DNA of 64,000 nt from Rubripirellula lacrimiformis (lineage in GTDB: Bacteria; Planctomycetota; Planctomycetia; Pirellulales; Pirellulaceae): contig NZ_CP036525.1 in NCBI RefSeq assembly GCF_007741535.1, positions 5,890,001-5,954,000 on the forward strand, read 5' to 3'. How positions within the stretch are numbered: position 1 is the stretch's first letter; every line of letters begins with the position of its first letter. This document shows positions 14,525 to 30,742 of the stretch, one piece after another. A program made the translations under genes and the position numbers. The notes below the pieces were generated by a model. It was not told the origin of the DNA. It was given only the letters and a program-made list of their open reading frames with translations, and made no database searches.

Positions 14525-15088
14525 TTATCGCTTGAAGACCAGTTCGACTTCAATCTTGACTTCGTTGTTGACCTTTCCTTGCCCGTAAGTCATGCCCCAC
14601 TTGGTGCGATCGATTTCGAAGCTGCCGTCAAGTTCGACGAAGTCTTCGGTGATCGTCACATCCACAGGCACTTCGATGGCAACCTTTTTGCCCAACATCT
14701 CCATTTCGCCTTTGATCTTTGCTTTTGCCACCTTATCGACAGGCTTCTCTGAGACGATTTCGGACGATGCGAAAGTGATTTTGGGATACTTGCGAACGTC
14801 AAAGAAGTCAGCGTTTTTGAGGTGATTGGTCAACTTGTCATCATCCGACCACAAACTGGCGGCTTCGATGACAATCGTGATCGAACTGTTTTGAGGGTTT
14901 TCAAAATCGGCAAGCGAGTCGACCGTGAACTTTTTGAAACCGCCTTTGTGCTGACCATCCGACTTGCTGCCCACGAAATGGATCTTCGATTTACCGGGAA
15001 CCAATTCCAGTTCGGCAGCGGCGACAGGTTGGAACATGCCGACCAATGCCAAAGCACACATCAGGGAGCCGAGAATACGCATCTTCAT
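14525..15088 (-). CDS. YceI family secreted lipid-binding protein
   Basis: 187 residues. An N-terminal signal peptide (MRILGSLMCALALVGMFQPVAAA) is followed by the YceI lipocalin-like domain: AELELVPGKSKIHFVGSK, then NHLKNADFFDVRKYPKITF and TIKW-like FEIDRTKWGMTYGQGKVNNEVKIEVEL at the end. Family members bind isoprenoid chains such as quinone-like lipids in the periplasm; the ligand here is not known. I choose the ATG at 15088 because the 110 residues upstream in the open frame are low-information. It precedes the membrane protein gene on the same strand. Confidence 0.9.
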   Translation of the reverse strand: MKMRILGSLMCALALVGMFQPVAAAELELVPGKSKIHFVGSKSDGQHKGGFKKFTVDSLADFENPQNSSITIVIEAASLWSDDDKLTNHLKNADFFDVRKYPKITFASSEIVSEKPVDKVAKAKIKGEMEMLGKKVAIEVPVDVTITEDFVELDGSFEIDRTKWGMTYGQGKVNNEVKIEVELVFKR

Positions 15089-15451
15089 CTTTGTTTTTTC
15101 CGCAAGCAGGTGGAGGGAAGGAAGAAACCACCGCCACAGGGCCAGGCCCGTGACGGTGCGAAACAGGTGTTCAGGAACGGTTGGGGCGTTCACCCATTCG
15201 CCATTGGGGCCGACATTGGGGCGATCGCCCCCGCGCGAACGCGGGAACCGTCTGGCGACAATACGGCGAATCAACCGAACGAATCCCGGTGAACTGCTTC
15301 GCCGCAGCATTATATCCGCCCCGGCAATCGCCCGGGCACCGCAAGCCAACCGACGCCCTGGCCTGGGGGGGCGAATTGTCCAATTGGCGACATTCGCCGC
15401 ACCGCGTTCGTATTGACGCACGGACGCCGAAAACGGTATTGAACCGGGATC
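15089..15451. other. Intergenic region between divergent yceI-type gene and ferredoxin gene
   Basis: 363 bases between divergent genes. Open frames here are extensions or shadows of the neighbours and lack motifs. It presumably carries both promoters, but I see no strong -35/-10 pair, operator or hairpin that I would annotate. Confidence 0.5.
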
Positions 15452-17323
15452 ATGCAGATGGAAGAGTCAATCCCGGTGCGCCGTCCCGAGCGTTGGAGCC
15501 AACCAATGGACGCGTCGATTTGCGACGCGGACGTTTCCTGGCTGCGCTCTCGCGAGCCATTCGCCAGTATGAACGCGTCGTCGTTTCCGCGTTCGATGCC
15601 GCTCGATGGGATCCTGCGAAACGACACCCGACTGCACCGCTGCGAGCCTGGCGAAATCATTGTTCGCGAAGGCGATTACGGAAACAGCGCGTTCCTGGTC
15701 TTGGCTGGCAGCGCTGCGGTGGTCGTGCAGTCACTGTTGCCCGAACAGTTGGGCCGGACACCCGAAGAAAAATTATCGTGGACCGATGCGCTGCGTCGGT
15801 TCTTGAGTCGCAGCCGAGTGCCCGAATCCCGACGTCCCGACCAGGTGACCGCTGGCGGTGATGGGATCGATTCGGTCGGCACAGTGCGTCAGGTCGACGA
15901 TCGCCCGACACTGTTCTTGCAAGACTTTGATGGCGTCCTGCGAAACAGCGGCTCAGTTTCGCTGGGGCCGGGCGAGATGTTCGGCGAGGTCGCGGCAATG
16001 TATCGGTCGCCGAGATCCGCCACGGTCATCGCCGAAACAGAAGTCACCCTGCTGGAAATTCGTTGGCAAGGTCTGAAGATCCTTCGCCGCGATCAAGGAT
16101 TCGCCGATACCCTGGACCGCCACTATCGCCAAAACTGGTTGAAGGTCCACCTCAGCGAACTGCCGCTGCTAAGGCATGTTCCCGAGTCCAACTTGGTACG
16201 CATCGCCGACGCCACCCAAATGCACTCATTCGGGCGGATGGAATGGAATGCGGACTACAAAAAAACGCGGCAGTTGCCGGTTCAGGAACAGTTAGAATCC
16301 GAACCAATTGTTTCCGCCGAAGGGCGAGTGCCGACGGACTTGATCATCGTCCGCAGCGGGTTCGGACGGATGTCGCAATCGTTCGGCGCATCGGAACGCA
16401 CGACCGCCTACATGGGCAAAGGCCAGATCTTTGGGCTCGAGGAAATCGCGTTCAACATGTTGCGCCCCGAAACGGTTGCCCCCAAGGCGACTCAGCAATC
16501 GCTTCGCGCGATCGGATTCCTGGACGCATTGTTCATTCCCGCGGAAACGTTCGCCGAGGAAATCCTGCCTTACGTGCGGCGCAGCGAACTGCCCGATTCG
16601 GTAGCCCAGTGGATGGACGCGCCCAAAACAGCCCAAGAAACCGATCCCAATACCGTTCCCAAGGCGGGCGATCGCCGCGGGGATAGTCGCGGCCGTTCGG
16701 ATCGCCGCGGGGAACAACGGGCCGCCGACCAAGGCGGTGCGAACCCCCAACCTTCGCCAGACGCATCCGGTCAACAGTTTCAGCAAACCGGATTGCTGGA
16801 ATTCATCGTCCAAAATCGCGTCAACAATGGTCGCCAAGCAATGGTGATCGATCTGCACCGGTGCACCCGATGCGATGACTGTGTCAAAGCATGTGCGGCG
16901 ACTCATGACGGCAACCCGCGATTTGTCCGCCAAGGGGTCGCGCACGAACAACTGCAATTCGTCCAAGCGTGTATGCAGTGCAGCGATCCGGTTTGCATGA
17001 TCGGATGCCCCACCGGTTCGATCGCTCGCGATGAAGAAACCGGAGTGGTCCGGATTCACGAACCCATCTGCATCGGTTGCGGAACCTGTGCATCGTCGTG
17101 CCCTTACGAAAACATCCGGATGGCCGAGGTCGCTGACCCCCAAGGCCGTCCCTATACGGACATGCAAACCGGAAAGCCGATTCGCAAAGCGACCAAGTGC
17201 GACATGTGTCAGAGCCAGCCGACGGGACCGGCCTGCGTCGCAGCATGTCCGCACGACGCGTTGGTTCGCATTGACCTGACCCAATCCAAGCCGCTGCAAC
17301 AGTGGCTCGATCGACGGAGTTGA
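15452..17323 (+). CDS. Dual cyclic-nucleotide-domain / four-cluster ferredoxin fusion
   Basis: 623 residues. Residues about 60-205 form a cyclic-nucleotide-binding (CRP-like) domain with an intact phosphate-binding motif MFGEVAAMYRSPRSATV; residues about 230-375 form a second, more divergent one (GKGQIFGLEEIAF). A charged linker (395-445) leads to a ferredoxin module with 16 Cys in four groups: C471/474/477/481, C507/510/515/519, C540/543/546/550, C583/586/595/599, the pattern of HybA/DmsB-type subunits holding four [4Fe-4S] clusters. No Tat or Sec signal is visible, so it should be cytoplasmic. It is followed two bases later by the cytochrome b gene. The fusion suggests electron flow gated by a nucleotide or other ligand. 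Confidence 0.9.
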   Translation: MQMEESIPVRRPERWSQPMDASICDADVSWLRSREPFASMNASSFPRSMPLDGILRNDTRLHRCEPGEIIVREGDYGNSAFLVLAGSAAVVVQSLLPEQLGRTPEEKLSWTDALRRFLSRSRVPESRRPDQVTAGGDGIDSVGTVRQVDDRPTLFLQDFDGVLRNSGSVSLGPGEMFGEVAAMYRSPRSATVIAETEVTLLEIRWQGLKILRRDQGFADTLDRHYRQNWLKVHLSELPLLRHVPESNLVRIADATQMHSFGRMEWNADYKKTRQLPVQEQLESEPIVSAEGRVPTDLIIVRSGFGRMSQSFGASERTTAYMGKGQIFGLEEIAFNMLRPETVAPKATQQSLRAIGFLDALFIPAETFAEEILPYVRRSELPDSVAQWMDAPKTAQETDPNTVPKAGDRRGDSRGRSDRRGEQRAADQGGANPQPSPDASGQQFQQTGLLEFIVQNRVNNGRQAMVIDLHRCTRCDDCVKACAATHDGNPRFVRQGVAHEQLQFVQACMQCSDPVCMIGCPTGSIARDEETGVVRIHEPICIGCGTCASSCPYENIRMAEVADPQGRPYTDMQTGKPIRKATKCDMCQSQPTGPACVAACPHDALVRIDLTQSKPLQQWLDRRS

Positions 17324-17325
17324 CG

Positions 17326-18192
17326 ATGGCTAGTGTGACAACCAAAGACGCGGCTCAGGGGCTCGCTGGCAAATTCCAGCTAACGTTTCGAATGCGACGC
17401 AAAGTTTCGCTGATCGTGACCGCGATCGCGCTGGCCGTCGTGTACTGCATCGCACAGATCCAAGCCGGTCGCCTGGCGCACGCATCGTTCTTTACCGGAT
17501 TCACGGTACTGGCGTCGATCTTGCTGTTGGTGCTGTTGGGCGTTCGGCGGCGATTGCCGATTTTGCCGCTGGGCACGGTTGCCACATGGACCCAGATCCA
17601 CCTGTACATGGGATTGTTCGCGTTCGGCGTGTACGCGATGCATGTTCCGATGCTGGTCGCCGGTGGGATTTTCGAATCGGGACTATCGATCGTTTTCCTG
17701 TTGGTCACCTGCAGCGGTTTTTATGGCATCTACGCCAGCCGAACGTTGCCCAAACGATTGACCGCGGTCGACGGCCAGCACCGGTTCGACCACGTGGGTT
17801 GGCACCGCGCCCAAATTGCTAAGTCGGCGCGACAGTTACTCGACAACGTGCACGAACATTCGGGCATGCGAGTGCTAGGCAGCTTCTACACTCACTACTT
17901 GAACCCGTTCTTCGAGTCGCGGCCGTCGTTGGCCTATGTGATGATGCCGACCGGACTGCGACGGCGACGATTGCTGGGCGGGCTGAAAGAGTTGGATCGA
18001 TATTTGGAAGACGAAAGCCGCGGCACCGCAGGCCGACTGGCTGCCCTGGTTCGCCGCCGCGACGATCTGGACTACCAGTACGCGTTGCAACTCCGACTGC
18101 GACTGTGGGTGGTCGTGCACAGCGTGTTTTCGATCGCCTTGGTGGCGGCCGCACTGGTGCATGCCGTGATCGCATGGCGACACGCCGGATAG
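17326..18192 (+). CDS. Membrane cytochrome b-like protein, probable two hemes
   Basis: 288 residues with two hydrophobic helices near the start, two in the middle and one at the C-terminus. Two helices each have a His pair spaced by 14: QIHLYMGLFAFGVYAMH and VHSVFSIALVAAALVH. Four such histidines can ligate two stacked b hemes, as in the ferric reductase/NOX and related superfamilies. A soluble middle part of about 110 residues (160-260) has RRRRLLGGL and no cofactor motif. I choose the ATG at 17326 with GGAG upstream over an ATG inside the previous gene. Position between a cytoplasmic ferredoxin and an external multiheme cytochrome suggests it carries electrons across the membrane. Confidence 0.8.
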   Translation: MASVTTKDAAQGLAGKFQLTFRMRRKVSLIVTAIALAVVYCIAQIQAGRLAHASFFTGFTVLASILLLVLLGVRRRLPILPLGTVATWTQIHLYMGLFAFGVYAMHVPMLVAGGIFESGLSIVFLLVTCSGFYGIYASRTLPKRLTAVDGQHRFDHVGWHRAQIAKSARQLLDNVHEHSGMRVLGSFYTHYLNPFFESRPSLAYVMMPTGLRRRRLLGGLKELDRYLEDESRGTAGRLAALVRRRDDLDYQYALQLRLRLWVVVHSVFSIALVAAALVHAVIAWRHAG

Positions 18193-18276
18193 ATCCCTCC
18201 CCCAATTTGCCGCCCCGATTTACCGACCATGACCGACGTGACCGGGCCCCGAGCCTGGGTTTCATTGGAAAGTTAG

Positions 18277-20505
18277 ATGCGCCGCGAAGAAATACAGTTG
18301 CCCGATCCCCCCAACAACGACCGCCCCGGCGATCGTTGGATGTGCGGCCGCACCGACAGCCCCTGTGGCCGCGGCCCCGGTGGGAATGGACGCTGCACCA
18401 TGGCCGACGGGTGCAAACCCAAACGGACATGGCAAGGACGCCGGCACCAGATTGGAATCGTTGTCATCGCAATCTGCATTGCCGCTTTGGGATTCGTGGC
18501 CTGGCAACCGCTGCGGGCGACCGTGGTCAAACCGGGCGAATTGTCGACTCCGCACGCTCAAATCTTGTCGGGAACCATGGACTCGGGCCGCTGCGCCGCT
18601 TGTCACCCGCAAGCGTCGTCGTGGACGGATTGGTTTTCGTCCGCCGGCGGTTCCGAATTACAGACATCCTTGGTGTCGGGTTCCCAAACGTCCGCCGGGG
18701 GACATGCCGGAGTCACGCAAAGCGATCGATGTTTGGATTGCCACCACGCATCGATGGATCGGTCGACGGCCAAACTAGCCCACAACCTGCCCGCCGCGGT
18801 GCGAAGCGAACTGCGGCTCGCATCGCAACAGCGACACAGTTCGTCTTGGAAAAATTGGCTGCCGCCCGAAGCGGTCAACCAAGAAGACATTCAGTGCAGT
18901 GCGTGTCACCGCGAACACCGTGGCCCCAACGGCAATCTGACCGCGATGACCAACGATCAATGTCAAACCTGTCACAGCGATCGTTTCGATAGTTTCGCCA
19001 GCTCGCACCCCGCATGGACCGATTGGCCGTATGGGCGCGGTGGCCAAATCGCGTTCAACCACGCGACTCATCAAACCAAACACTTTCCCGAAACCATGAA
19101 AGATGGTTTGGCTGCTGATTTCGCGTGCAGCCATTGCCACGACAAAAATCATGCCGGCGAACTGAATCGATCGGTCAGTTACGAACGTTCATGCCAAAGC
19201 TGTCACGATCAGGGGCTTCGTATCGAAGCGGCTGCTGGCATCGATTGGGTGACGCTGCCCAGTTTGTCCCAGCCAGCCGCGGACGAACTAGCGATGGACC
19301 CACAGGGCGCGTGGCCGGAGGGTGCCACCGGTTTTTACGACGGACGCGTGACCCCTTGGATGGCCTTGATGATGCGGGCCGATCCATCGCTGACCGACGC
19401 GATGGCCAAGGTTCCCGATCACGATTTTTCAAAACTGGACGGATCACGCCGCGATGCCGTCGCCACGGCTGCGAAGATTGCCGCTGGCCACCGCGAAATC
19501 ATCCAAGCGATCAGCCGCAACGGCCAACAAGTGATCCTGGATCGATTGGCGGACAGCGGGATCGAAACCGAGACGCTGCGGTCACTGCTGCGCAGCCTGT
19601 CACCGCAATTGATCGAAGAAGCGGACCGACGATGGTTTACGTCCTCGCCGAACGATTCCGCATCGGCCGCCCGCACGTCGCCCATCCGGGCGGCAAAGTT
19701 TTTGATGAAACCGGACGACGACCTGTTGGATGGCGACCTGTTGGGTGGGGATGACGATCTAGCCGATGACAGTTTGATTGGCGGCAGCGATGTGCTGGAC
19801 TTAGGGTCGTTCTCTGATGATGAACTTGCTGGTGATCCGTTGGCGGATCCGCTGGGGATGGATCCTCTATCCGCAGCGCCGGCCTCGTCGGGCGATGGAC
19901 GTCCTTCGCCGCGATTTGACGCCGACCGAATGTTGCCAGCCGGAGGTTGGTATCGAGACGATCTGACGTACGCGATTCGCTACCGAGGCAATTCCCACGA
20001 GGACCCTGTTCTTCGCGCGACGATCGAATTGGCGTCTCAGTTGGCCCCCAGCGACCCAGCTCGCCAACAGATCCTGGAAAACCAAGCGGTCGCCGCCTGC
20101 GTGCGTTGCCACCCGGGCGCCGTTTCCCAAGACCGCCCGACGACGTGGACGACGCAGCCGCTGGTCGGGCGCCGGGGGGGATTCACCAAGTTCACGCATT
20201 CACCCCACCTGAACATCGCTGGTCTGTCCGACTGCCTTCACTGTCACCAGATCGATCCTGACTTTGGACAGGGTCCGATGGGATCGGGCGACGGTCCCCA
20301 AGACAGATCAGAGGGTGGCGGCGCAGGACTGAACCTGACGTCCGCCGCGGCGACCACAGTCAACGCTGGTGTGGGGCAAGCGATCCCAGCCCATGATTTT
20401 CTGCCGATGCAGATTGGGGACTGCGCCAGCTGCCACCGCCCGGACGCGGCCGGCGACGCATGTGTGAAATGCCACCGATATCACATCGATCCGGGGCTAC
20501 GCTAG
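18277..20505 (+). CDS. Membrane-anchored decaheme c-type cytochrome
   Basis: 742 residues. A hydrophobic anchor lies at about residues 59-76 (IGIVVIAICIAALGFVAW) after a 50-residue tail. Ten CxxCH heme-attachment motifs follow: Cys106, 152, 207, 229, 284, 306 in an N-terminal group of six, and Cys608, 653, 716, 729 in a C-terminal group of four. Between them are a helical part (330-460) and an Asp/Leu-rich acidic insert (479-531) encoded by 15-bp repeats. Extra conserved His in FNHATHQTKHF and FTKFTHSPHLN could be distal ligands. GGAAAG lies before the ATG. The protein should sit outside the cytoplasmic membrane and exchange electrons with the upstream cytochrome b. Confidence 0.92.
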   Translation: MRREEIQLPDPPNNDRPGDRWMCGRTDSPCGRGPGGNGRCTMADGCKPKRTWQGRRHQIGIVVIAICIAALGFVAWQPLRATVVKPGELSTPHAQILSGTMDSGRCAACHPQASSWTDWFSSAGGSELQTSLVSGSQTSAGGHAGVTQSDRCLDCHHASMDRSTAKLAHNLPAAVRSELRLASQQRHSSSWKNWLPPEAVNQEDIQCSACHREHRGPNGNLTAMTNDQCQTCHSDRFDSFASSHPAWTDWPYGRGGQIAFNHATHQTKHFPETMKDGLAADFACSHCHDKNHAGELNRSVSYERSCQSCHDQGLRIEAAAGIDWVTLPSLSQPAADELAMDPQGAWPEGATGFYDGRVTPWMALMMRADPSLTDAMAKVPDHDFSKLDGSRRDAVATAAKIAAGHREIIQAISRNGQQVILDRLADSGIETETLRSLLRSLSPQLIEEADRRWFTSSPNDSASAARTSPIRAAKFLMKPDDDLLDGDLLGGDDDLADDSLIGGSDVLDLGSFSDDELAGDPLADPLGMDPLSAAPASSGDGRPSPRFDADRMLPAGGWYRDDLTYAIRYRGNSHEDPVLRATIELASQLAPSDPARQQILENQAVAACVRCHPGAVSQDRPTTWTTQPLVGRRGGFTKFTHSPHLNIAGLSDCLHCHQIDPDFGQGPMGSGDGPQDRSEGGGAGLNLTSAAATTVNAGVGQAIPAHDFLPMQIGDCASCHRPDAAGDACVKCHRYHIDPGLR
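19720..19764 (+). repeat. 15-bp repeats encoding acidic insert of decaheme cytochrome
   Basis: Three in-frame 15-base units at 19720, 19735 and 19750 encode DLLDG, DLLGG and DDDLA; degenerate copies continue beyond (DDSLI, and DPLGM-DPLSA at about 19850-19880). The segment is rich in Asp and Leu and joins the six-heme and four-heme groups. Confidence 0.7.
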
Positions 20506-21627: not shown

Positions 21628-21852
21628 ATGAGCCAGTGCAAGAACGTTTTCGAAGCGATCCTGCGTTACGGTCACGACGAAGATTTCGTGCCGAACGAAG
21701 AAAACGGATTCTCCGCTACCGACGCACCAGCGGGTAGCCCGGACAAGATCGAAGTTCTTCGCCGTCGAGTCGAATTGGGCCAACCACTTTGGCACACCAC
21801 CGACCGAGTCGATTACAGCGGACTGACCGGCGCCATTCGCCCTCGCGAGTAA
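21628..21852 (+). CDS. Small conserved hypothetical protein (74 residues)
   Basis: A 74-residue, mildly acidic, soluble protein. It begins MSQCKNVFEAILRYG, continues through an acidic middle, and has a distinctive C-terminal part RRRVELGQPLWHTTDRVDY. The ATG at 21628 has GGAAGA eight bases upstream; a start at 21592 is possible but has none. The gene is flanked by a promoter with a palindrome on the left and by a stem-loop and a strong terminator on the right, so it is a complete single-gene transcription unit. I do not recognise a family with known function. A small regulatory or binding protein is a guess. Confidence 0.75.
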   Translation: MSQCKNVFEAILRYGHDEDFVPNEENGFSATDAPAGSPDKIEVLRRRVELGQPLWHTTDRVDYSGLTGAIRPRE

Positions 21853-21877
21853 TCGTCACAGCGAGCAAACGATCGCC

Positions 21878-21903
21878 GTTTCAACCTCTCCCGCGGTTGA
21901 AAC
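21878..21903 (+). promoter_or_regulatory. Nine-base-pair stem-loop after the small gene
   Basis: GTTTCAACC (21878-21886) pairs perfectly with GGTTGAAAC (21895-21903) around an eight-base loop. There is no T-run directly after it. It lies between the small gene and its terminator and may stabilise the 3' end. Confidence 0.5.
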
Positions 21904-21920
21904 TGCAACCATGACCCAGC

Positions 21921-21946
21921 CCCGCAGTTTCGCTGCGGGTTTTTTA
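21921..21946 (+). terminator. Rho-independent terminator
   Basis: CCCGCAG (21921-21927), loop TTTCG, CTGCGGG (21933-21939) form a perfect seven-pair GC-rich stem followed by six T. It ends the small gene's transcript at 68 bases after the stop codon. Confidence 0.9.
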
Positions 21947-22097
21947 TTGGACAGACGCCTCGCCGCGAAATCAAACTCGCCCCCGCACACGACCCCGGCA
22001 TTCGGTGCCGCTACTCGGTGCTGCTACTCGGTGCCCCTATTGAACGCATCTGCGGCGTAGAACGCGTTCAGCAGTCTGGAGATCGCCAGACCCGCGA

Positions 22098-22973
22098 TCA
22101 GACGGTCGGTGACCAGACTTCGATCGAGCGTGCCCCGGGATCCGTCAAGCCGATCTTGGCGGCCATCCGAGACAGCTGGTTCAGGGATTCTCTGCCGACG
22201 TCCCCCAGATCGATCGTCCATTGGTTGACGTACAGATCGACGTGCTGCATCAACACATCGTCCGCCATTTCCTGGGCGTACTGACGCATTGTTTGGAGCG
22301 CGGATGCGGGATCTGCCATCGCAACCCGCAGCGAATCATGGATCACCGACTGGACCAACCCGATGATGTCGTCGCCGAGCGCGCGGTTGGCGACGATCCC
22401 CCCCAGCGGCAAGGGCGAATCGGTGGCCTGTTCCCAGCGGGTGCCCAGGTCCTCGACCAAGTGCAGTCCCTGATCGGCCCATGTGAACCGGCCCTCGTGT
22501 ATGCAGACCCCGAAATCGGCGGTGCCCTGAACCAATCGCGGCATGATGTCCGAGAACACGCAGTGCTGGGCTGGTACCGCGTCCGGATAGAACAGCGTGA
22601 ACAACAGCGCGGCGGTGGTGTGTTGCCCGGGACAAAGATTGATGCTGCCGAAGTCGCCGGGCGACCGCTGTGGTGACGCGGCCAGTAACAATGGGCCGAC
22701 ACCGAAGCCCAGGGCCGAACCGCTGGGCAACACGACGGTCGTGTCGGTCATCCGCAGGGCGGCGTGAAAGCTCGTTTTGGCGACGTCAAAATCACCGCGA
22801 AATAGCCGATCGTTCAACTGTTGAATGTCGATCAAGTCGATTTCAAAATTCAGCCCCCGCCAATCCACGCGTTGGTCGATCAGAGCCGAGAAAGCGAACG
22901 TGTCGTTGGGACAGGTCGAAATGCCCAAACGGATCGTTTGGCGACGGTCACCTGGTTGGGTCTCGGATGTCAT
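22098..22973 (-). CDS. mqnD: 1,4-dihydroxy-6-naphthoate synthase (futalosine route)
   Basis: 291 residues. MqnD converts cyclic de-hypoxanthine futalosine to 1,4-dihydroxy-6-naphthoate in menaquinone synthesis. The start has the family signature LGISTCPNDTFAF, with the substrate-binding-protein-like fold indicated by RGDFDVAKTSFHAAL, SGSALGFGVGPLL and FGVCIHEGRFTWADQGLHLVEDLG. It is 26 bases downstream of the mqnB gene on the same strand, so the two form an operon. mqnA and mqnC are not in the window. Confidence 0.92.
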   Translation of the reverse strand: MTSETQPGDRRQTIRLGISTCPNDTFAFSALIDQRVDWRGLNFEIDLIDIQQLNDRLFRGDFDVAKTSFHAALRMTDTTVVLPSGSALGFGVGPLLLAASPQRSPGDFGSINLCPGQHTTAALLFTLFYPDAVPAQHCVFSDIMPRLVQGTADFGVCIHEGRFTWADQGLHLVEDLGTRWEQATDSPLPLGGIVANRALGDDIIGLVQSVIHDSLRVAMADPASALQTMRQYAQEMADDVLMQHVDLYVNQWTIDLGDVGRESLNQLSRMAAKIGLTDPGARSIEVWSPTV

Positions 22974-22999
22974 GCTCGGAAATCACAGGCGGGGAACGA

Positions 23000-23686
23000 T
23001 CAGTTCGAAAGATTCGTGGGGTCAGGCAGAATCAGGTCAACGACCATCGTGGCGGCGGCAGCCAACGCGTCATCGATTTTCCAGTTCGCATGGTTACGAT
23101 CACCGGCCAGATTGGAAATCCCACGAACAATTCGCAGCGGCACCGCGGCTAGCGTGCAGGCCATCGCCACGGCGAACCCTTCCATATCCTCAGCCGCAGC
23201 GCCGGGAAACCGCGATCGTCGATTCTTTGCATCCTGGTCGCACGCCGACCCGTTGGGGACGGTCAACAAACGTCCGGCTGACGATTCGGATCCCTGGCCG
23301 CCGCAGTCCAACGCCAACGCATCGCCGATTGTAGGCAGCGATGGTTCGCCGCCGAACTGGGGCCACCCTAGCTTGGATGCGCTGACAAATCCGGGGCCGG
23401 CGCCGACACCAATCCCGTCGCACATCACCTCGTCGAATTGCCAACTGGTCCCCACCGGGCAGCGCCCCAAATCCAAGCTGCCGGCAATCCCCACCAACAG
23501 CACGCGGTCGGGTCGATGATCGGCAATCAAAGCGGCCGCCCGCGCTGCGGCAGCCACCGGTCCAAAGCCACACAACTGAAAGATGGGTGGCTGGATGGTT
23601 GCCAAACGTTGCTGCAAAGCCAGCTCGATGGGGTCCCGCAGCGAGCTCATCTCCATCGACGTCGGGACAAGAATGAGATCAGTCAC
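23000..23686 (-). CDS. mqnB: Futalosine hydrolase
   Basis: About 228 residues of the nucleoside phosphorylase superfamily. It cleaves futalosine to de-hypoxanthine futalosine plus hypoxanthine. Motifs: LILVPTSMEMS at the first strand, GFGPVAAAARAAALI, RVLLVGIAGSLD, and the substrate Glu in AAEDMEGFAVAMAC followed by RIVRGISNLAGDRN. I choose a GTG at 23686 because the first beta strand begins right after it; the longer frame to 23917 overlaps tsaD. No clear ribosome site is seen. It precedes mqnD and implies that this organism makes menaquinone by the futalosine route. Confidence 0.88.
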   Translation of the reverse strand: MTDLILVPTSMEMSSLRDPIELALQQRLATIQPPIFQLCGFGPVAAAARAAALIADHRPDRVLLVGIAGSLDLGRCPVGTSWQFDEVMCDGIGVGAGPGFVSASKLGWPQFGGEPSLPTIGDALALDCGGQGSESSAGRLLTVPNGSACDQDAKNRRSRFPGAAAEDMEGFAVAMACTLAAVPLRIVRGISNLAGDRNHANWKIDDALAAAATMVVDLILPDPTNLSN

Positions 23687-23808
23687 ATGGATTGGGATGG
23701 TTAGGAAGATCGAAATAGAGTGTTGCAACAAGACGTTGATGGACCAACGCCGAAGCGCTGGATCCGCCAACTCAAGCGTCCGCCGCCGGCTTGGGCAACG
23801 ACAGCCGA

Positions 23809-24831
23809 TCAAAAGCCGCGCTGCAGGCCTGGCGTGATGTCCAGGTCCAGGCTGGCAAACTGACCGCGACGAATTTTCTCTAGCGCGATCGCGCCCATCA
23901 CCGCGTTGTCGGTGCACAGATCCAACGGCGCGATCGTGATTTCGAATTCATGGCGTTTGGCCGCTGCGTCCAGTGACGACCTTAGGTATCCATTCGCTGC
24001 GACTCCGCCACCAACCACTAACCGGCGGACGTCGAACTTCGCAACCGCTCGCACAGATTTGGCCACCAACACATCCACGACGGCGGCTTCGAACGAAGCG
24101 CACAGATCCGACTTGGCGGCATCGGACAAGACAACCTTCGAAAAATCCTGCTGGCCTGGTCCCACGATCGCGTAACGAACCGCGGTCTTCAGCCCGCTGA
24201 AACTGAAATTGAAATGGTCTTCGTGAATCATCGACCGGGGGAACGCGTGAGCCTTTCGATTTCCCTGGGCCGCGAACTTGGACACCGCAGGACCGCCCGG
24301 AAACCCCAAGCTTAGCATCGCGGCGACTTTGTCGAAGGCTTCGCCCGCAGCGTCATCGATGGTGCCGCCTAAGTACTGCAGATCCAGCGGGCTAGTCAGG
24401 TGATACAAGCTGGTGTGACCGCCGCTGACGACCAGGCCCACGCAGGGATAGATCGGTTCGCTGCAAGCCAACTGGCACGCGTACAGGTGAGCGTGCAGAT
24501 GGTTGATCGCCACCAGGGGTTTCTGCCAGGCCAGCGCCAACGATTTGGCAGCGACGACGCCCACTAACAACGACCCGGCCAACCCGGGCCGATCGGCGAC
24601 GGCAATCGCCGCCAAGTCATCGGGGCCGACGCCCGCGGTTTGCATCGCGGTGTCGATGACCGGCAAGATCCGCTCTAGGTGCGCCCGTGCGGCCACTTCC
24701 GGCACCACACCGCGGAATTGCTCGTGCAATTTTTCCTGGGTCGCGATGCAGTCACCCAATACACGACCGTCGTCGTCAATCACCGCCGCAGCGGTTTCGT
24801 CGCAAGTCGATTCGATCGTCAAGATTGCCAT
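23809..24831 (-). CDS. tsaD: tRNA N6-adenosine threonylcarbamoyltransferase
   Basis: 340 residues, the normal TsaD length. It transfers the threonylcarbamoyl group to A37 of ANN-decoding tRNAs. Motifs: ILTIESTCDETAAAV at the start, the iron-binding pair HLHAHLY, LVVSGGHTSLY, and GGGVAANGYLR with later CTDNAVMGA. The ATG follows a weak ribosome site. mqnB lies 122 bases downstream on the same strand. Cytoplasmic. Confidence 0.96.
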   Translation of the reverse strand: MAILTIESTCDETAAAVIDDDGRVLGDCIATQEKLHEQFRGVVPEVAARAHLERILPVIDTAMQTAGVGPDDLAAIAVADRPGLAGSLLVGVVAAKSLALAWQKPLVAINHLHAHLYACQLACSEPIYPCVGLVVSGGHTSLYHLTSPLDLQYLGGTIDDAAGEAFDKVAAMLSLGFPGGPAVSKFAAQGNRKAHAFPRSMIHEDHFNFSFSGLKTAVRYAIVGPGQQDFSKVVLSDAAKSDLCASFEAAVVDVLVAKSVRAVAKFDVRRLVVGGGVAANGYLRSSLDAAAKRHEFEITIAPLDLCTDNAVMGAIALEKIRRGQFASLDLDITPGLQRGF

Positions 24832-24915
24832 GGTCAGAGCTTAACATCAGCCCCCAAATCATGGCGATACCACGCATCATCGCGGCAATCCATGATCGGG
24901 AATCCAATGATTGGT

Positions 24916-26325
24916 CTAGCCTTTGATCGATTCGTCAGACGATTTGCCGATGGCGTGAATTTCGAACCCGATCTTGGTCAGCTTGTCGCGATCCAGCAGA
25001 TTGCGTCCGTCGAACACAAATGCGGGGCGTTGCATCGAAGCGTAAACGCGATCGAAGTCCAACGATCGAAATTCGTCCCATTCGGTCAGAACGGCGATCG
25101 CATGGGCATCTTCGGCCGCCACGTATCCGTCGTGGACGATCGTGACGTTGTTCTCGATCAACTTCCGATCGATGTCGCTGATCTGTCCCTGAAGGTCCGA
25201 ACAGGCGACGGCCAAGTCATGACGAATCTGCGTCTCGGGGACGCGCGGATCATAAATGGTCAACCGAGCCCGTTCGCGAATCAGGTCCCGACATACGTAC
25301 AAGGCAGCCGATTCTCGCGTGTCGTTGGTGTCCTTTTTAAATGCAAACCCCAACACACCGATCTTTTTGTCGCTGACCGTGTTGAACATCGTCCGCACGA
25401 TGCGTTCGCTGAACCGGCGTTTTTGGTAGTCGTTCATGCTGACCACCTGTTCCCAGTACTGAGCCACTTCGCGGAGTCCAAAGTGTTCGCACAGGTAGAC
25501 CAGGTTCAGAATGTCTTTTTGGAAACAGCTTCCTCCGAAACCGACCGAAGCCTTCAGAAACTTGGGACCAATTCGCGAATCAGTACCGATCGCGCGAGCC
25601 ACCTCGTCGACGTCTGCGCCGGTGGCTTCGCATAGAGCCGAGATCGCGTTGATCGACGAGACCCGTTGGGCCAAGAACGCGTTGGCGGTCAGTTTCGACA
25701 GCTCGCTGCTCCACAGGTTGGTCGTCAGAATTCGCTCGCGAGGAATCCAGTTGGCGTAGATATCGACCAAGGTTTCGATGGCCTGCTTCGATTCGCCACC
25801 GATCAACACGCGGTCGGGATTCAACAGGTCATCGACAGCCGTCCCCTCGGCAAGAAATTCGGGGTTCGACAACACGTCGAAAGTCGCACCGTTGTCGGCG
25901 CTGCTAAGGATGCGTTTAACAGCCTCGGCCGTACGCACGGGCAGCGTCGATTTCTCGACCACGATCTTGTGGCCCGTCGAGACGCGAGCAATTTGGCGGG
26001 CGCACTTTTCAATGAATTCTAGATTGGCCGCCCGACCGGCACCCACGCCAAACGTCTTGGTCGGTGTGTTGACCGAAATGAAGATCATGTCCGATTCGGC
26101 GATCGCTTCGTCGACGCGTGTCGAGAAGGTCAGATTGCGTGGCAACGCCTCCGCCACGACGGCGTCCAGCCCGGGCTCGTAAACCGGCAAGCTGTCCGAA
26201 TTCCAAGCGTCGATGCGAGCTTGATTGAGGTCCACCACGTGGACCGAGATGTCAGGGCACTGTTTCGCGATCATGGCCATGGTAGGACCACCAACGTAAC
26301 CAGCACCGATGCAACAGATTTTCAT
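24916..26325 (-). CDS. UDP-glucose 6-dehydrogenase, animal-type
   Basis: 469 residues. It oxidises UDP-glucose to UDP-glucuronate with NAD. The NAD-binding start is [30 protein letters not shown] and [13 protein letters not shown] follow; the catalytic Cys is 267 in [13 protein letters not shown], and [12 protein letters not shown] binds the nucleotide sugar. Length and wording of motifs ([21 protein letters not shown]) resemble animal and plant UGDH more than the shorter bacterial Ugd/TuaD type. It supplies uronic acids for envelope polysaccharides. It is alone, with a 0.5 kb non-coding gap before the next gene. Confidence 0.95.
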
Positions 26326-26818
26326 AGAATCAACGAAGCGAGGGAATGAACGGAATCAAGGCCGGGGGGGGCATGCCAGATGATAGCGAATGACGAGCGT
26401 TTCGCTGACCGGGGGCGAATCGCGGTCCTGATCAACCGCCCGCCTGGCTTCCCCCCGGACGCCACGAATATCTGCATCCGTGGTCGCGGCGTCGGTCGCA
26501 TGCGTAACTCAAGTCCTTTTCAGCGAACAAGGGTTTCGGCACCGGGCAAATTTCACATGCTCGATATCCTGACCTAAGTTTTGACGGAAGGAAGCCAACC
26601 GCCACGATTTCGCCGCTGGCGAAGGATGCTGGCGAGCGCGCGTTCGGGTTGTGACGAATGAATCGTCTGCAACGTTCGCCGGTGGGATCCGACGATCGCC
26701 CAGCAGCGGAAACACGGCAAAACGGTCCGATTGGATCGGATCGCCGCGACCGAAGGCCCGCAGGTCTATCTGGCCGCCGACATCTGCCATTCATCGAAAT
26801 CCAACGAAGAAAATCTCC
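26326..26818. other. Long non-coding gap upstream of UGDH and lipoprotein genes
   Basis: 493 bases between divergent genes. A G-run (GGGGGGGG near 26364) and C-rich stretches occur. The frame of the lipoprotein gene stays open back to 26651 but reads as low-information sequence. A GGAAGGAAGCC motif at 26586-26596 recalls the SRP RNA loop but lacks matching arms. I see no gene or well-supported site here. Confidence 0.5.
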
Positions 26819-27325
26819 GTGAATATCTCATCGCAACATTCCACCCGATCGACGATCTGCCGCGCCGCTGTGTTGGCTGCCGTATCAGTGGTCCCGTTCG
26901 TGATGGGGTGCGGCGGCGATTCCGAGACACTCAATCGGATCCAACAAGTCGCCCAGAACGCCTCGGGCGTACGACCATCGCTGTCATCCAGCGATGCGGT
27001 GGACCAACAACAGAATCCCCGCTTCACCCGAACCAATTTTGTTGCGCCCTATCCGGATCGCGAGGATGCGTTCGTGTACCCGGGAATGGAGTCCGAATCG
27101 GCATCGCCAGATTCAGCGGTCACCTCCGTTGCCGATGTGCAGGTACTGGGTTTCGCCGAAACCGATCAGATCCGCGTCATGCTGCGATCCCGGTCCACCA
27201 CCCAGCCCATCGCGGTTGGCGGAAAGTTCGAAGGGATCGAAGTCGTGTCGATCACCCCACCGACCGTCGAGCTTAAAATTGGATCGTTGATTTGGAACGC
27301 GACCATGTTTGACAAATCTCGCTGA
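26819..27325 (+). CDS. Putative lipoprotein of unknown function
   Basis: 168 residues starting at a GTG. The N-terminus is a lipoprotein signal peptide: AVLAAVSVVPFVMGCGGDSE, with the lipobox Cys in FVMGC. The mature part has a flexible Ser/Gln-rich segment followed by a small beta domain with VQVLGFAETDQIRVML, VGGKFEGIEVVSITPPTVEL. The C-terminal half looks like a short pilus-assembly (PilP-like) or SH3-like fold because of its 'G-I-E-V' strand pattern and the ending ELKIGSLIWNATMF, but I cannot confirm that. Secreted and lipid-anchored by inference. Confidence 0.65.
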   Translation: MNISSQHSTRSTICRAAVLAAVSVVPFVMGCGGDSETLNRIQQVAQNASGVRPSLSSSDAVDQQQNPRFTRTNFVAPYPDREDAFVYPGMESESASPDSAVTSVADVQVLGFAETDQIRVMLRSRSTTQPIAVGGKFEGIEVVSITPPTVELKIGSLIWNATMFDKSR

Positions 27326-27488
27326 TGGATCGGACGAATCGCATCGTCTGGACTGGTGGGCGGATCTCCATTGGCACACGGTGATTCTGTTTGCGGCGAT
27401 CCCGGCCACCGCGATTCTTATTCATCGGTTTGAGCGTCTTTGTCAAAACGAGGCTGCGAGTGCCGTTTCGTCAACAATCTTTGCTTAG
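27309..27488 (+). CDS. Possible small membrane protein
   Basis: A frame from TTG at 27309, overlapping the lipoprotein's end by 17 bases, encodes about 59 residues with one hydrophobic stretch (HTVILFAAIPATAILIH) preceded by HRLDWWADLHW and ending in a short polar tail. Composition is protein-like and the stop is followed by non-coding DNA. There is no clear ribosome site and no recognised family, so this may be a chance frame. Confidence 0.25.
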   Translation: MTNLADGSDESHRLDWWADLHWHTVILFAAIPATAILIHRFERLCQNEAASAVSSTIFA

Positions 27489-27598
27489 CCAGCAGGTTCA
27501 ATCTCATTGATTCTGCTATCGTGTGGCACGCCGCGGGGCCCGACGTTGGGGTTTGATCCACGGCAGTTTCTTGTCGCCGATCAGCGAAGTAGGTTTGG

Positions 27599-28702
27599 AT
27601 GAGTGAGTCGATTTGTCGTTGGGGATTCTTGGGTACCGCCGCGATCTCTCGCAAAGTCTGGAAAGCGGTTCGAGTCAGTGGCAATGGCCGTGTGGCTGCG
27701 GTCGCCAGTCGGTCCGAACCGCGAGCCCAAGCGTACATCGACCAATGTTCCGCCGAAGTTCCACAGATCGAACCGGTGACGGCGGTGGGATCGTACCAGG
27801 CACTGCTGGAAAACGATGACATTGATGCCGTCTACATCCCGCTGCCCACAGGCCTGCGGAAAGAATGGGTGATCGCGGCCGCCAAAGCGGGCAAGCATGT
27901 GTTGTGCGAAAAGCCAGCCGCCGTGCACAGCGACGATGCCAAAGCGATGATCGACGCTTGCAATGACGCCGGCGTCCAGTTCATGGATGGTGTGATGTTT
28001 GATCACAGCGCCCGGATGAACGAGATTCAACGCTTGCTACGTGACGAATCACCGATCGGCCAACTGCGACGAATCCACAGCCACTTTTCCTTCGCTGGCG
28101 ACGAATCGTTCCAAAAGTCCAACATTCGAACCGATGCGAAACTGGAACCGCATGGATCGCTGGGGGACCTGGGTTGGTACTGCATCCGATTCACGCTTCG
28201 TGCACTGAATCTTCAAATGCCGACCCACGTCTCCGGTCAAACACTGACCGGCCTTCGCGGCAGCGAATCGGAATCCGAAGTACCGGGTGAATTTGTCGGC
28301 GAGATGCGTTTTGCCGATGGCTTGTCGGCGTCGTTTTACTGTTCGTTCCTGTCGGCCAATCAACAGACGGCAACGATTTCGGGCCAGGATGGTTACCTGA
28401 CCGTCGACGACTTCGTGCTGCCGCTCTACAGCGGCGAATCCCAGTGGGCGACGCACCATCATGAACTAGCAGTCGACAATTGTCGCTGGAACTTTTCTCG
28501 GCACACGCGAGGTGCATCGGTCCCCGAATTCGCATCCGGTGAATCCAATTCACAGGAGGTAAACATGGTGCGCACGATGGCCCAGATTGCGTTATCCGGG
28601 AAGACCGACCCGATGTATCCCGAACTGACGATCAAGACTCAGCAGATCCTGGACGCCTGCCGCCGCAGCGATGCCAAGGGCGGACAGTTGGTCGCGGTCT
28701 GA
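27599..28702 (+). CDS. Gfo/Idh/MocA family oxidoreductase
   Basis: 367 residues with an N-terminal NAD(P)-binding Rossmann domain (WGFLGTAAISRKV; YIPLPTGLRKEWVIAAAKAGKHVLCEKP, with the family's catalytic Lys of EKP) and a C-terminal substrate domain beginning FMDGVMFDHS and including GDLGWYCIRFTL. These are the marks of the dehydrogenase group that acts on sugars, inositols or dihydrodiols; the substrate cannot be read. The start codon ATG at 27599 has GTAGG upstream. It precedes the SSS symporter by 94 bases on the same strand, so import and oxidation of a sugar-like substrate may be linked. Confidence 0.9.
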   Translation: MSESICRWGFLGTAAISRKVWKAVRVSGNGRVAAVASRSEPRAQAYIDQCSAEVPQIEPVTAVGSYQALLENDDIDAVYIPLPTGLRKEWVIAAAKAGKHVLCEKPAAVHSDDAKAMIDACNDAGVQFMDGVMFDHSARMNEIQRLLRDESPIGQLRRIHSHFSFAGDESFQKSNIRTDAKLEPHGSLGDLGWYCIRFTLRALNLQMPTHVSGQTLTGLRGSESESEVPGEFVGEMRFADGLSASFYCSFLSANQQTATISGQDGYLTVDDFVLPLYSGESQWATHHHELAVDNCRWNFSRHTRGASVPEFASGESNSQEVNMVRTMAQIALSGKTDPMYPELTIKTQQILDACRRSDAKGGQLVAV

Positions 28703-28796
28703 TCGAGTCGTTTGGCGATTTTTTCATCCCCTGGTCGCCCGCCCGCCTTCTGCCCGCCTCCCTACTTCGAACCTTCGCCGAATCGAGCCATCCCCG

Positions 28797-30560
28797 ATGT
28801 TGACCCTCGTCTCGTTCATCTTTTTCACCGCATTGGTCGGTGTGTTGACTTACCTGTTGGTGCGAGGCAAGGAAAGCGAATCTAGCGACGGATACTTTCT
28901 GGCTGGGCGGTCCCTGACCGCTGGTGTGATCGCCGGGTCATTGCTGTTGACGAATTTGTCGACCGAGCAATTGGTCGGGCTCAACGGCGCCGCCTTCGGG
29001 GACGGTTTGGCAGTGATGGCATGGGAAGTGATTGCCGGCTTGTCGTTGGTGGTGATGGCGTTGTTCTTTTTGCCCCGTTATCTGGCCCGCGGGATCACGA
29101 CGATTCCACAGTTCCTGGCGGGTCGATTCAATGAAACGACCGAGTCGATCACGAATGCGATTTTCATCTTGGCGTACGCGGCCATCCTGCTGCCGATCAT
29201 CCTGTACACCGGTGCCCGTGGACTCAGCGGGATCTTGGACCTGCACGAACTGACGGGCATCCAGAACGACCAAACCATTTTGTGGATGGTGGTTTGGATG
29301 ATTGGCATCATTGGATCGATCTACGCGGTGTTTGGCGGACTGCGAACCGTGGCGATCAGCGATACGATCAACGGTTTTGGTCTGTTGGTAGGCGGTGCCA
29401 TGATCGCGTACCTAGGGCTTCAGTGGGTGGGCGACGGAGACGCGTTGAACGGTTGGACGACGATGCGTGATGCGGAACCCAAGCGATTCAGTTCGCTGGG
29501 TGATGCGGATTCATCGGTACCTTGGCCGACTCTGTTCACCGGCGTGTTGCTGTTGAACATGTTTTACTGGACCACCAACCAACAGATCATCCAGCGAACG
29601 TTCGCCGCCAAGACTCTGGCCGAAGGCCAAAAGGGTGTCTTGTTGGCAGCCGGGTTGAAAGTGTTTGCACCACTGATTTTGGTTTTGCCAGGCATGATGG
29701 CCTATCACTTGGACACCAAGGGCGAACTGTTTTCAGCCGATCGAGTTCAGGTGATGGCGAGCGAAGCTCGTGCCGCCTTCGATGCCTTGGCCGACGCAGA
29801 ACGTTCCGCTGCCCTGGCCGCCGAAGACGCTTCGATCGATGAAGAGGTCGCGATCGAAAACTGGGTCTCGGCAACGGTCCAAAGCCAAAAGAAAGATCAG
29901 TCCTATGGTTCGCTGGTCCGCCAAGTGCTGCCCAAACCGTTGACCGGATTTTTTGCTGCGGTGATGGTCGGCGCAATCCTTAGCTCGTTCAACTCGGCGC
30001 TCAACGCGACAGCCACGCTATTCAGCCTGGGGATTTATCGTCGCTACATCCGTCCCACCGCCGACGAAACCGCGGTCGTTCGCAGCGGACGCGTGTTCGG
30101 CACCCTGATCGCGATTGTCGCGATGTGCGTCGCCCCGATGCTGGCTGGCCAAGACAGCATCTTTGGGTACCTACAGAAGATGAACGGGCTGTACTTCATT
30201 CCGATTTTTGCGGTCGTGCTGGTCGGAATGCTGGATCGTCGGGTGCCAGCATGGATCGCCAACGTGGCCTTGGTCGCAGGATTCGCAGCGATCGCGTTGG
30301 GATATTTTGCGTTCGGCGACTGGATGAAACAGGTCGAACTTCACGAATTTCACTTCCTGGGAATCGTCTTCGTTTCGCTCGTGATCCTGATGGAGATCGT
30401 CGCCTTCACCAGCCCCAGGGTGATCCCAGAGGGTGCTTTGCCGGATAATGACGAATCTTTGTCGCCGATTCCAATGACCCGGTGGCCGTTGGCGGGACCG
30501 GTGGGGGCCGGTTTGGCGATCGCCGTTTTGCTGATTTATGGGTACTTTGCAGTGATATAG
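28797..30560 (+). CDS. Sodium:solute symporter (SSS) family transporter
   Basis: 587 residues with about 14 hydrophobic helices. SSS motifs: DGYFLAGRSLTAGVIAGSLLLTNLSTEQLVGLNG, GGLRTVAISDTINGF and NSALNATATLFSLGIY, the last containing the sodium-site region. Similar to the vSGLT/sugar branch. A soluble segment of about 60 residues, Ala/Glu-rich (EARAAFDALADAERSAALA), sits after MMAYHLDTKGELFS. The ATG at 28797 begins directly before the first helix; a longer frame from 28671 overlaps the previous gene. It follows the Gfo/Idh oxidoreductase, so a sugar or polyol is the likely substrate. Confidence 0.9.
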   Translation: MLTLVSFIFFTALVGVLTYLLVRGKESESSDGYFLAGRSLTAGVIAGSLLLTNLSTEQLVGLNGAAFGDGLAVMAWEVIAGLSLVVMALFFLPRYLARGITTIPQFLAGRFNETTESITNAIFILAYAAILLPIILYTGARGLSGILDLHELTGIQNDQTILWMVVWMIGIIGSIYAVFGGLRTVAISDTINGFGLLVGGAMIAYLGLQWVGDGDALNGWTTMRDAEPKRFSSLGDADSSVPWPTLFTGVLLLNMFYWTTNQQIIQRTFAAKTLAEGQKGVLLAAGLKVFAPLILVLPGMMAYHLDTKGELFSADRVQVMASEARAAFDALADAERSAALAAEDASIDEEVAIENWVSATVQSQKKDQSYGSLVRQVLPKPLTGFFAAVMVGAILSSFNSALNATATLFSLGIYRRYIRPTADETAVVRSGRVFGTLIAIVAMCVAPMLAGQDSIFGYLQKMNGLYFIPIFAVVLVGMLDRRVPAWIANVALVAGFAAIALGYFAFGDWMKQVELHEFHFLGIVFVSLVILMEIVAFTSPRVIPEGALPDNDESLSPIPMTRWPLAGPVGAGLAIAVLLIYGYFAVI

Positions 30561-30742
30561 GGGGCGAGTGCCTCTATATTGGAAGCGATTGACGCAGGCA
30601 CCGTCGGTGCCAGAATTCGCAAATGGTGCGATTTTCCGGTGTTGGCGTCGTCATTCCGATCACGTTCGCGGCTGTCGATTCGGTACAATCGACGACTTGT
30701 CGGTTCGATCGAGTTCGCTTCCTTTAGGCTGACCCCACCCCC

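Follow-up and report, generated by a model that had tools for sequence, protein, structure and literature searches.

A three-gene block encodes a CNB-ferredoxin, a cytochrome b and a decaheme cytochrome c

We analysed a 64,000-nucleotide stretch of the Rubripirellula lacrimiformis genome (contig NZ_CP036525.1, positions 5,890,001 to 5,954,000; hereafter the window, whose coordinates are counted from its first letter). According to the list of open reading frames (ORFs), three genes, here called P1, P2 and P3, lie there head to tail on the plus strand. A first-pass annotation of this DNA had described a protein with two cyclic nucleotide-binding (CNB) domains and a 16-Cys ferredoxin, followed by a cytochrome b with two H-x13-H helices and an anchored decaheme cytochrome c, and these parts and their order were confirmed. 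We take the three genes as belonging to PCC4, a putative porin-cytochrome conduit (He et al, 2017; PMC5566968, main text).

15452..17323, plus strand: P1, 623 amino acids, CNB-CNB-ferredoxin, taken as the pfam13247-type Fe-S protein of PCC4 (Pfam, invariant Cys, Foldseek)
17326..18192, plus strand: P2, diheme cytochrome b with five helices and a cytoplasmic helical domain (predicted topology), taken as the PCC4 inner-membrane protein (motifs, model)
18277..20505, plus strand: P3, N-terminally anchored decaheme cytochrome c, 742 amino acids (ten CxxCH)

For P2, the ORF list gives a GTG start at 17302; the ATG at 17326 lies two bases past the P1 stop.

The three genes are conserved as a set

Relatives were collected by scanning named genomes with the P1 alignment, which gave at least 590 pattern matches, of which at least 561 encode a relative. 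Counts out of 80 given below refer to the best 80 of these at least 561 relatives, and thus to close relatives of P1. A first set of 50 places yielded 40 regions for comparison; left out were the window, its paralogue (L039), seven weak hits and a further hit within a locus already included. Of the 80 loci, 78 contain P2 and 74 contain P3. The earlier proposal depended on the three genes being conserved together, and this was borne out: among the 69 loci with at least 3 kb of sequence beyond P1, 67 have P2 and 65 have both P2 and P3. Pairwise distances also correlate over 66 loci (P1-P2, 0.90; P1-P3, 0.87; P2-P3, 0.84). As judged from these comparisons, the conservation of the gene set and of the invariant residues described below is far beyond chance.

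By record title, the hosts include Pirellulales (Rhodopirellula, Rubripirellula, Stieleria, Roseiconus and others), Verrucomicrobia (Opitutae and Kiritimatiellae among them), Alpha- and Gammaproteobacteria, Mariprofundus, SAR324 and a metagenome-assembled genome (MAG) of Armatimonadetes. Single host labels may be wrong, since many records are MAGs. Two loci, L157 (Kiritimatiellae) and L163 (Gammaproteobacteria), have nearly equal P1-P2-P3 scores and spacing, and one of them may be mis-binned. Within the family of the window, a P1 match at 1e-60 was found in 74 of 149 genomes, and 68 of these reach 1e-100 or better, which is the level of this P1 type.

P1 combines tandem CNB domains with a 16-Cys ferredoxin

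As a whole protein, P1 matches Pfam cNMP_binding with 72 bits and also 4Fe-4S dicluster domains. Its parts are as follows.

15599..16087, plus strand: CNB-A, approximate limits, broken by an insertion (Pfam, alignments, model)
15980..16027, plus strand: CNB-A nucleotide cassette FGEVAAMYRSPRSATV, residues 177-192 (G178/E179 in 79/79, R188 in 69/79; PKG alignment)
16184..16579, plus strand: CNB-B, approximate limits, degenerate cassette (G-L-x-E, no G-E...R; alignment; 23.5 bits alone)
16835..17275, plus strand: ferredoxin domain, 16 Cys, predicted four [4Fe-4S], best solved relative HycB3 (7qv7)

The 16 cysteines, at residues 471-599, are invariant in all 79 aligned P1 proteins (window included; P1 proteins shorter than 520 amino acids were left out). 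P1 matches PF13247 with 37 bits (cut-off, 26) and also matches the HydN, HybA and FdhB profiles. It would be expected to hold four [4Fe-4S] clusters.

In the CNB part, both a PF00027 match and a G-E...R cassette are present in CNB-A and absent from CNB-B, which scored below the Pfam cut-off when taken alone in the genome-wide scan (23.5 versus 27.5 bits). HMMER aligned the CNB-A cassette with those of PKG. G178, E179 and R185 are invariant in 79/79 proteins and are among the eight positions that never vary of the 156 compared; as far as the alignment tells, CNB-A keeps a canonical nucleotide cassette in most relatives. In Foldseek searches, the P1 model matched the tandem CNB domains of the PKA regulatory subunit (PKA-R) and PKG (best E 2.6e-16); the CNB-A insertion is partly of low confidence in this model. 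P1 thus resembles PKA-R and PKG in its tandem CNB fold and cassette, but it has no kinase and only one canonical site of two. The ligand pocket of the CNB domains, on which the first-pass annotation had also made its proposal depend, was assessed here from the sequence and the general fold.

P2 carries two invariant histidine pairs

Two helices of P2 bear the candidate heme ligands:

17587..17643, plus strand: third helix, W88-x3-H92-x13-H106 (invariant His, motif)
18106..18162, plus strand: last helix, W261-x3-H265-x13-H279 (invariant His, motif)

The pairs H92/H106 and H265/H279 are invariant in 29/29 proteins of the first set and in 75/75 of a larger one, proteins outside 250-329 amino acids having been left out of the alignment. 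Window P2 has WX3HX13H at residues 88 and 261 and SGFYG at 130; among 79 proteins (window and any partial proteins included), two WX3HX13H motifs are found in 68 and SGXXG in 62. In the AlphaFold2 model (predicted local distance difference test, pLDDT, 86) the helices fit five transmembrane segments, with a helical domain preceding the last one; hydropathy alone gives four regions, the third and fourth segments being merged. Pfam gives one sub-threshold match for window P2, to DUF4405, and the commonest weak matches in the 29-protein set are cytochrome b561, DUF4405 and ferric reductase.

The positive-inside rule would put H92 and H265 on the cytoplasmic side of the membrane and H106 and H279 towards the periplasm, so that two b hemes would bridge the membrane. 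The histidine pairs are placed as in known diheme cytochromes b, as the first-pass annotation had supposed.

P3 is an anchored decaheme cytochrome with an additional Cys-rich segment

P3 contains ten CxxCH motifs and a single N-terminal hydrophobic helix at about residues 57-80, which serves as its anchor. Exactly ten motifs are present in 62 of 66 complete P3 relatives. Ahead of the anchor lie four further cysteines (23, 30, 40 and 46) that the first-pass annotation did not mention:

18343..18414, plus strand: four-Cys segment of P3 before the anchor, predicted to lie on the cytosolic side (strict motif in 45/73 relatives)

Such a Cys-rich segment (CG..PC..GP..G.C...C.P) recurs in decaheme N-termini as one or two copies before the anchor, and is lost in some relatives. 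No Pfam match was found in the segment of window P3. It is possibly an extra metal site.

Gene content, order and motifs point to PCC4 subgroup II

According to its published description, PCC4 comprises a porin, periplasmic cytochromes with four, five and ten hemes, and an inner-membrane protein with five transmembrane segments, two WX3HX13H motifs and SGXXG. In its subgroup II, which includes Planctomycetes, an Fe-S (pfam13247) gene lies upstream of the inner-membrane gene, and redox genes lie upstream of the tetraheme gene (PMC5566968, main text). The window has a five-segment protein with both WX3HX13H motifs and SGXXG, an upstream PF13247 gene and a ten-heme cytochrome, and some of its relatives carry a barrel-like protein and a pentaheme cytochrome c; unlike in PCC4 as described, only three parts are linked in the window. 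On the basis of gene content, order and motifs, we take P1-P2-P3 to be the inner-membrane core of PCC4 subgroup II. The view of the first-pass annotation that no named system has this order of parts was therefore not upheld: in subgroup II, as described in that main text, an Fe-S gene lies upstream of this inner-membrane protein together with 4-, 5- and 10-heme cytochromes. What is new, as read from the domain matches and gene positions, is that the PCC4 Fe-S subunit carries tandem CNB domains, which points to a sensory nature, and that here the PCC4 core occurs with its peripheral genes dispersed. The terms 'cyclic nucleotide' and 'Crp' do not occur in the main text of PMC5566968.

Other known systems share single parts with the block. 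P1 is like the HybA/FdnH/HycB-type subunits, the multi-cluster ferredoxins of dehydrogenase complexes, HycB3 (7qv7) being its best PDB match. Those ferredoxins work with a hydrogenase or a formate dehydrogenase, and to our knowledge they have no CNB domains. P2 is like the NADPH oxidases (NOX) and ferric reductases (FRD, PF01794), in which, according to the main text of PMC5566968, two H-x13-H helices bind two b hemes. PF01794 gave no Pfam match in window P2, and 4/29 proteins match it at E up to 1 (best E 0.0021). NOX/FRD proteins are fed by an FAD/NAD(P)H domain; unlike in these, the electrons here would go to a multiheme cytochrome c, and a CNB-ferredoxin precedes the cytochrome b in most relatives seen. 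CbcL, MtrH and MtoC likewise join an inner-membrane part with a multiheme cytochrome c in extracellular electron transfer, but, compared by their description in the main text of PMC6295460, they differ in being one polypeptide, mostly with six transmembrane segments, and quinone-linked; the word ferredoxin does not occur in that main text.

A paralogue and a fused variant have different cytoplasmic modules

The same genome contains a paralogous operon (G000:C1, ~3397770-3406241; L039:2771-11242) with a cytochrome b, a decaheme and a tetraheme cytochrome c, a fused NuoE/NuoF and an 836-amino-acid protein. The latter starts with a ferredoxin part, NuoG-like by a sub-threshold Fer2_4 match, and continues with CNB-CNB-ferredoxin; both of its CNB domains keep the G-E...R pattern in an alignment read by eye. 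This NADH-linked type B and type A of the window share the core. In a further locus, a FHA-FAD/NAD-2Fe-2S module is fused to a cytochrome b (L075:9758-12391, minus strand), giving a NOX-like one-chain variant. A decaheme cytochrome c follows it (L075:7678-9750, minus strand), and no CNB-ferredoxin was found in the 19-kb stretch. The cytochrome b and the decaheme cytochrome c therefore look like the constant part, and the cytoplasmic input modules look exchangeable.

Cyclase and FHA modules accompany some relatives

Of the 80 loci, 17 have a class III cyclase upstream, and all 17 cyclases match PF00211. In 16 loci the cyclase gene is divergent from P1, at a distance of 2.4-2.9 kb; the one in L153 (SAR324) has the same strand as P1 and a distance of 6.5 kb. 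Among the seven genomes of the class with a type-A P1 (of a 246-genome sample), five have a cyclase within ~3.5 kb (G048, G069, G152, G181 and G227), and G000 and G137 have none within this distance. Class III cyclases are present in 50/59 genomes of the class, mostly one to three in each, which by our own estimate makes such proximity less than 1% likely in any one genome. The genome studied here encodes three PF00211 cyclases. A scan of four type-A P1 proteins picked for having extra sequence revealed FHA domains in those of L041, L043, L048 and L055. As far as such gene and domain associations can tell, the CNB-A cassette, the cyclase linkage and the FHA modules favour regulation by signals.

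Elsewhere, at G216:C36 ~21650-31049, a 246-amino-acid frame with a ferredoxin match adjoins a 1050-amino-acid open frame that matches a class III cyclase, and a match resembling cytochrome b is also present. This is perhaps another linkage of a cyclase with electron transfer.

Further electron-transfer genes are linked in relatives and dispersed here

An FAD/NAD(P)H/2Fe-2S reductase is encoded in the flanks of 39/80 loci: in 33 it is upstream and has the same strand as P1, in 5 it is upstream on the opposite strand and in 1 it is downstream. A tetraheme c554-like protein is encoded in the flanks of 38/80; in 34 its gene is upstream with the same strand as P1, usually as the immediate neighbour, and in 4 it is on the opposite strand. 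The two occur together in 35/80. The first-pass annotation had noted that no dehydrogenase is adjacent, which holds for the window and fails for these many relatives with an NAD(P)H reductase. In the window, which has a single multiheme ORF, neither a tetraheme cytochrome c nor a redox gene is linked. Elsewhere in the genome, a c554 homologue that matches over nearly its full length (454 bits) lies at 342 kb, and a reductase homologue (325 bits) at 254.6 kb; the orthology of the latter is not certain, as the PaaE family matches it too, with 159 bits.

Across 246 genomes of the phylum, 25 have a type-A P1. With profiles built from proteins beside P1, c554 was found in 23/25 of these versus 8/221 without it, and the reductase in 20/25 versus 2/221 at a threshold of 1e-70, which was our choice; at 1e-90 the figures are 19/25 versus 0/221. 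Fisher values of ~1e-22 treat related genomes as independent, and it is the counts that matter here, not the p-values. A barrel-like protein, judged by eye, occurs in 12/80 loci and a pentaheme cytochrome c in 11/80; the one barrel-like protein scanned gave no Pfam match. Neither a porin nor a pentaheme cytochrome c was found in the scanned parts of this genome, but for a weak pentaheme match in L182; a search of the whole genome was not made.

The flanks of P1-P2-P3 look unrelated. Among the neighbours are what we take, from translations recognised by eye, to be a phosphate-transport operon, a PhoU-like gene and a YjbQ-like gene. A YceI-like gene (Pfam; 14525-15241, minus strand) is divergent from P1, and no YceI relative was found in the ORFs of the 80 loci around P1 relatives.

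Discussion

We consider it somewhat better than an even chance that P1-P2-P3 is the inner-membrane core of a PCC4-type conduit regulated by a cyclic nucleotide. In the mechanism that we infer, with clusters and hemes occupied and the three proteins in a complex, a donor or acceptor in the cytoplasm (probably NAD(P)H, acting through an FAD/2Fe-2S reductase encoded elsewhere in this genome) would exchange electrons with the four [4Fe-4S] clusters of P1. From there, electrons would pass to the cytoplasm-side heme of P2 (H92/H265), to its periplasm-side heme (H106/H279) and to the ten hemes of P3, and further periplasmic cytochromes, such as the tetraheme c554-like protein encoded elsewhere in this genome, would continue the path. 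A cyclic nucleotide bound to CNB-A would control how active P1 is or how it docks, and CNB-B would be a partner with a structural or altered role. Of the two parts of this reading, the transmembrane conduit is well supported by the conserved gene set and the invariant ligands, and gating, which the first-pass annotation had proposed as allosteric control of the ferredoxin, is plausible from the cassette and the linked signalling genes. The first-pass annotation had proposed a complete cytoplasm-to-exterior path. A cytoplasm-to-periplasm path of four-cluster ferredoxin, diheme cytochrome b and decaheme cytochrome c is indeed conserved as a unit; 'complete' goes too far, because further parts occur in relatives, namely an NAD(P)H reductase, a tetraheme and a pentaheme cytochrome c and a barrel-like protein.

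Several observations weigh against the regulated PCC4 core. On the side of the conduit, P2 has no significant solved fold match, no porin or pentaheme cytochrome c is linked in the window, and a tblastn recheck of the sequence at hand left L109 and L154 with P1 but neither P2 nor P3, and L092 and L098 without P3. The confidence of the P1 model is moderate (pLDDT 69). On the side of gating, R188 is Arg in 69/79, His in 9/79 and Leu in 1/79, and lies outside the 25 most conserved of the 156 CNB-A positions. CNB-B lacks the canonical residues: G328 and E331 are invariant, but there is no G-E...R pattern, so that CNB-B is unlikely to bind a cyclic nucleotide in the conventional manner. Cyclase linkage was found in none of the 22 loci closest to the window (L085-L106; 18 with at least 3.5 kb upstream), nor in this genome; 16 of the 17 cyclase-linked loci carry planctomycete names, the 17th being the differently arranged L153 (SAR324), and four of the five cyclase-linked genomes of the class belong to one genus.

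The degenerate CNB-B, the replacement of R188 in 10/79 proteins and the restriction of cyclase linkage to 17/80 loci would also fit the same conduit without gating, in which the CNB domains bind no ligand and have a structural or docking role, keeping P1 attached to P2 or dimeric. We regard this as a real possibility, though not a probable one: G178, E179 and R185 never vary, R188 is kept in most proteins, and the FHA modules added to P1 in four relatives look like signal input.

The direction of flow may also be the reverse. Extracellular or periplasmic donors such as Fe(II) would then reduce P3, and P2 would pass the electrons on to quinone, or P1 and the reductase would deliver them to NAD(P)+. 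The relatives include a Mariprofundus MAG and Ferruginivarius, and PCC4 was drawn as leading from an extracellular donor to the quinone pool (He et al, 2017; PMC5566968, main text). The flanking NAD(P)H reductase and the NuoEF-type paralogue suggest instead a supply from NAD(P)H, though both enzymes could in principle run either way. Many of the host genera are heterotrophs, which also counts against inward flow, and we entertain it only tentatively. That P1 is mainly a redox or nucleotide sensor rather than an electron carrier is very improbable: signalling proteins typically have CNB and FHA domains, but no output domain was found in window P1 by Pfam, its 16 cluster Cys are invariant, and it is strongly gene-linked to P2 and P3.

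With the regulated PCC4 core as the favoured reading, a broader picture seems to us to fall a little short of even odds: that of a widespread class of inner-membrane conduits in which a cyclic nucleotide, made in some lineages by an adjoining cyclase, switches the flux by acting on the protein itself, and whose relatives are switched by FHA modules that bind phosphopeptides. For bacteria, gene expression and the supply of substrate are generally regarded as the controls on respiratory and extracellular electron flow. Should a second messenger act directly on the ferredoxin from which a multiheme conduit is fed, electron export or uptake could be switched within seconds. Such conduits would then be a bacterial, multiheme counterpart of the regulated NAD(P)H oxidase, and a new type of target for cyclic nucleotide signalling in Planctomycetota, Verrucomicrobiota and others. 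For PCC4, which the main text of PMC5566968 defines by its gene content, this would provide a testable cytoplasmic partner, the NAD(P)H reductase, and a testable mode of control.

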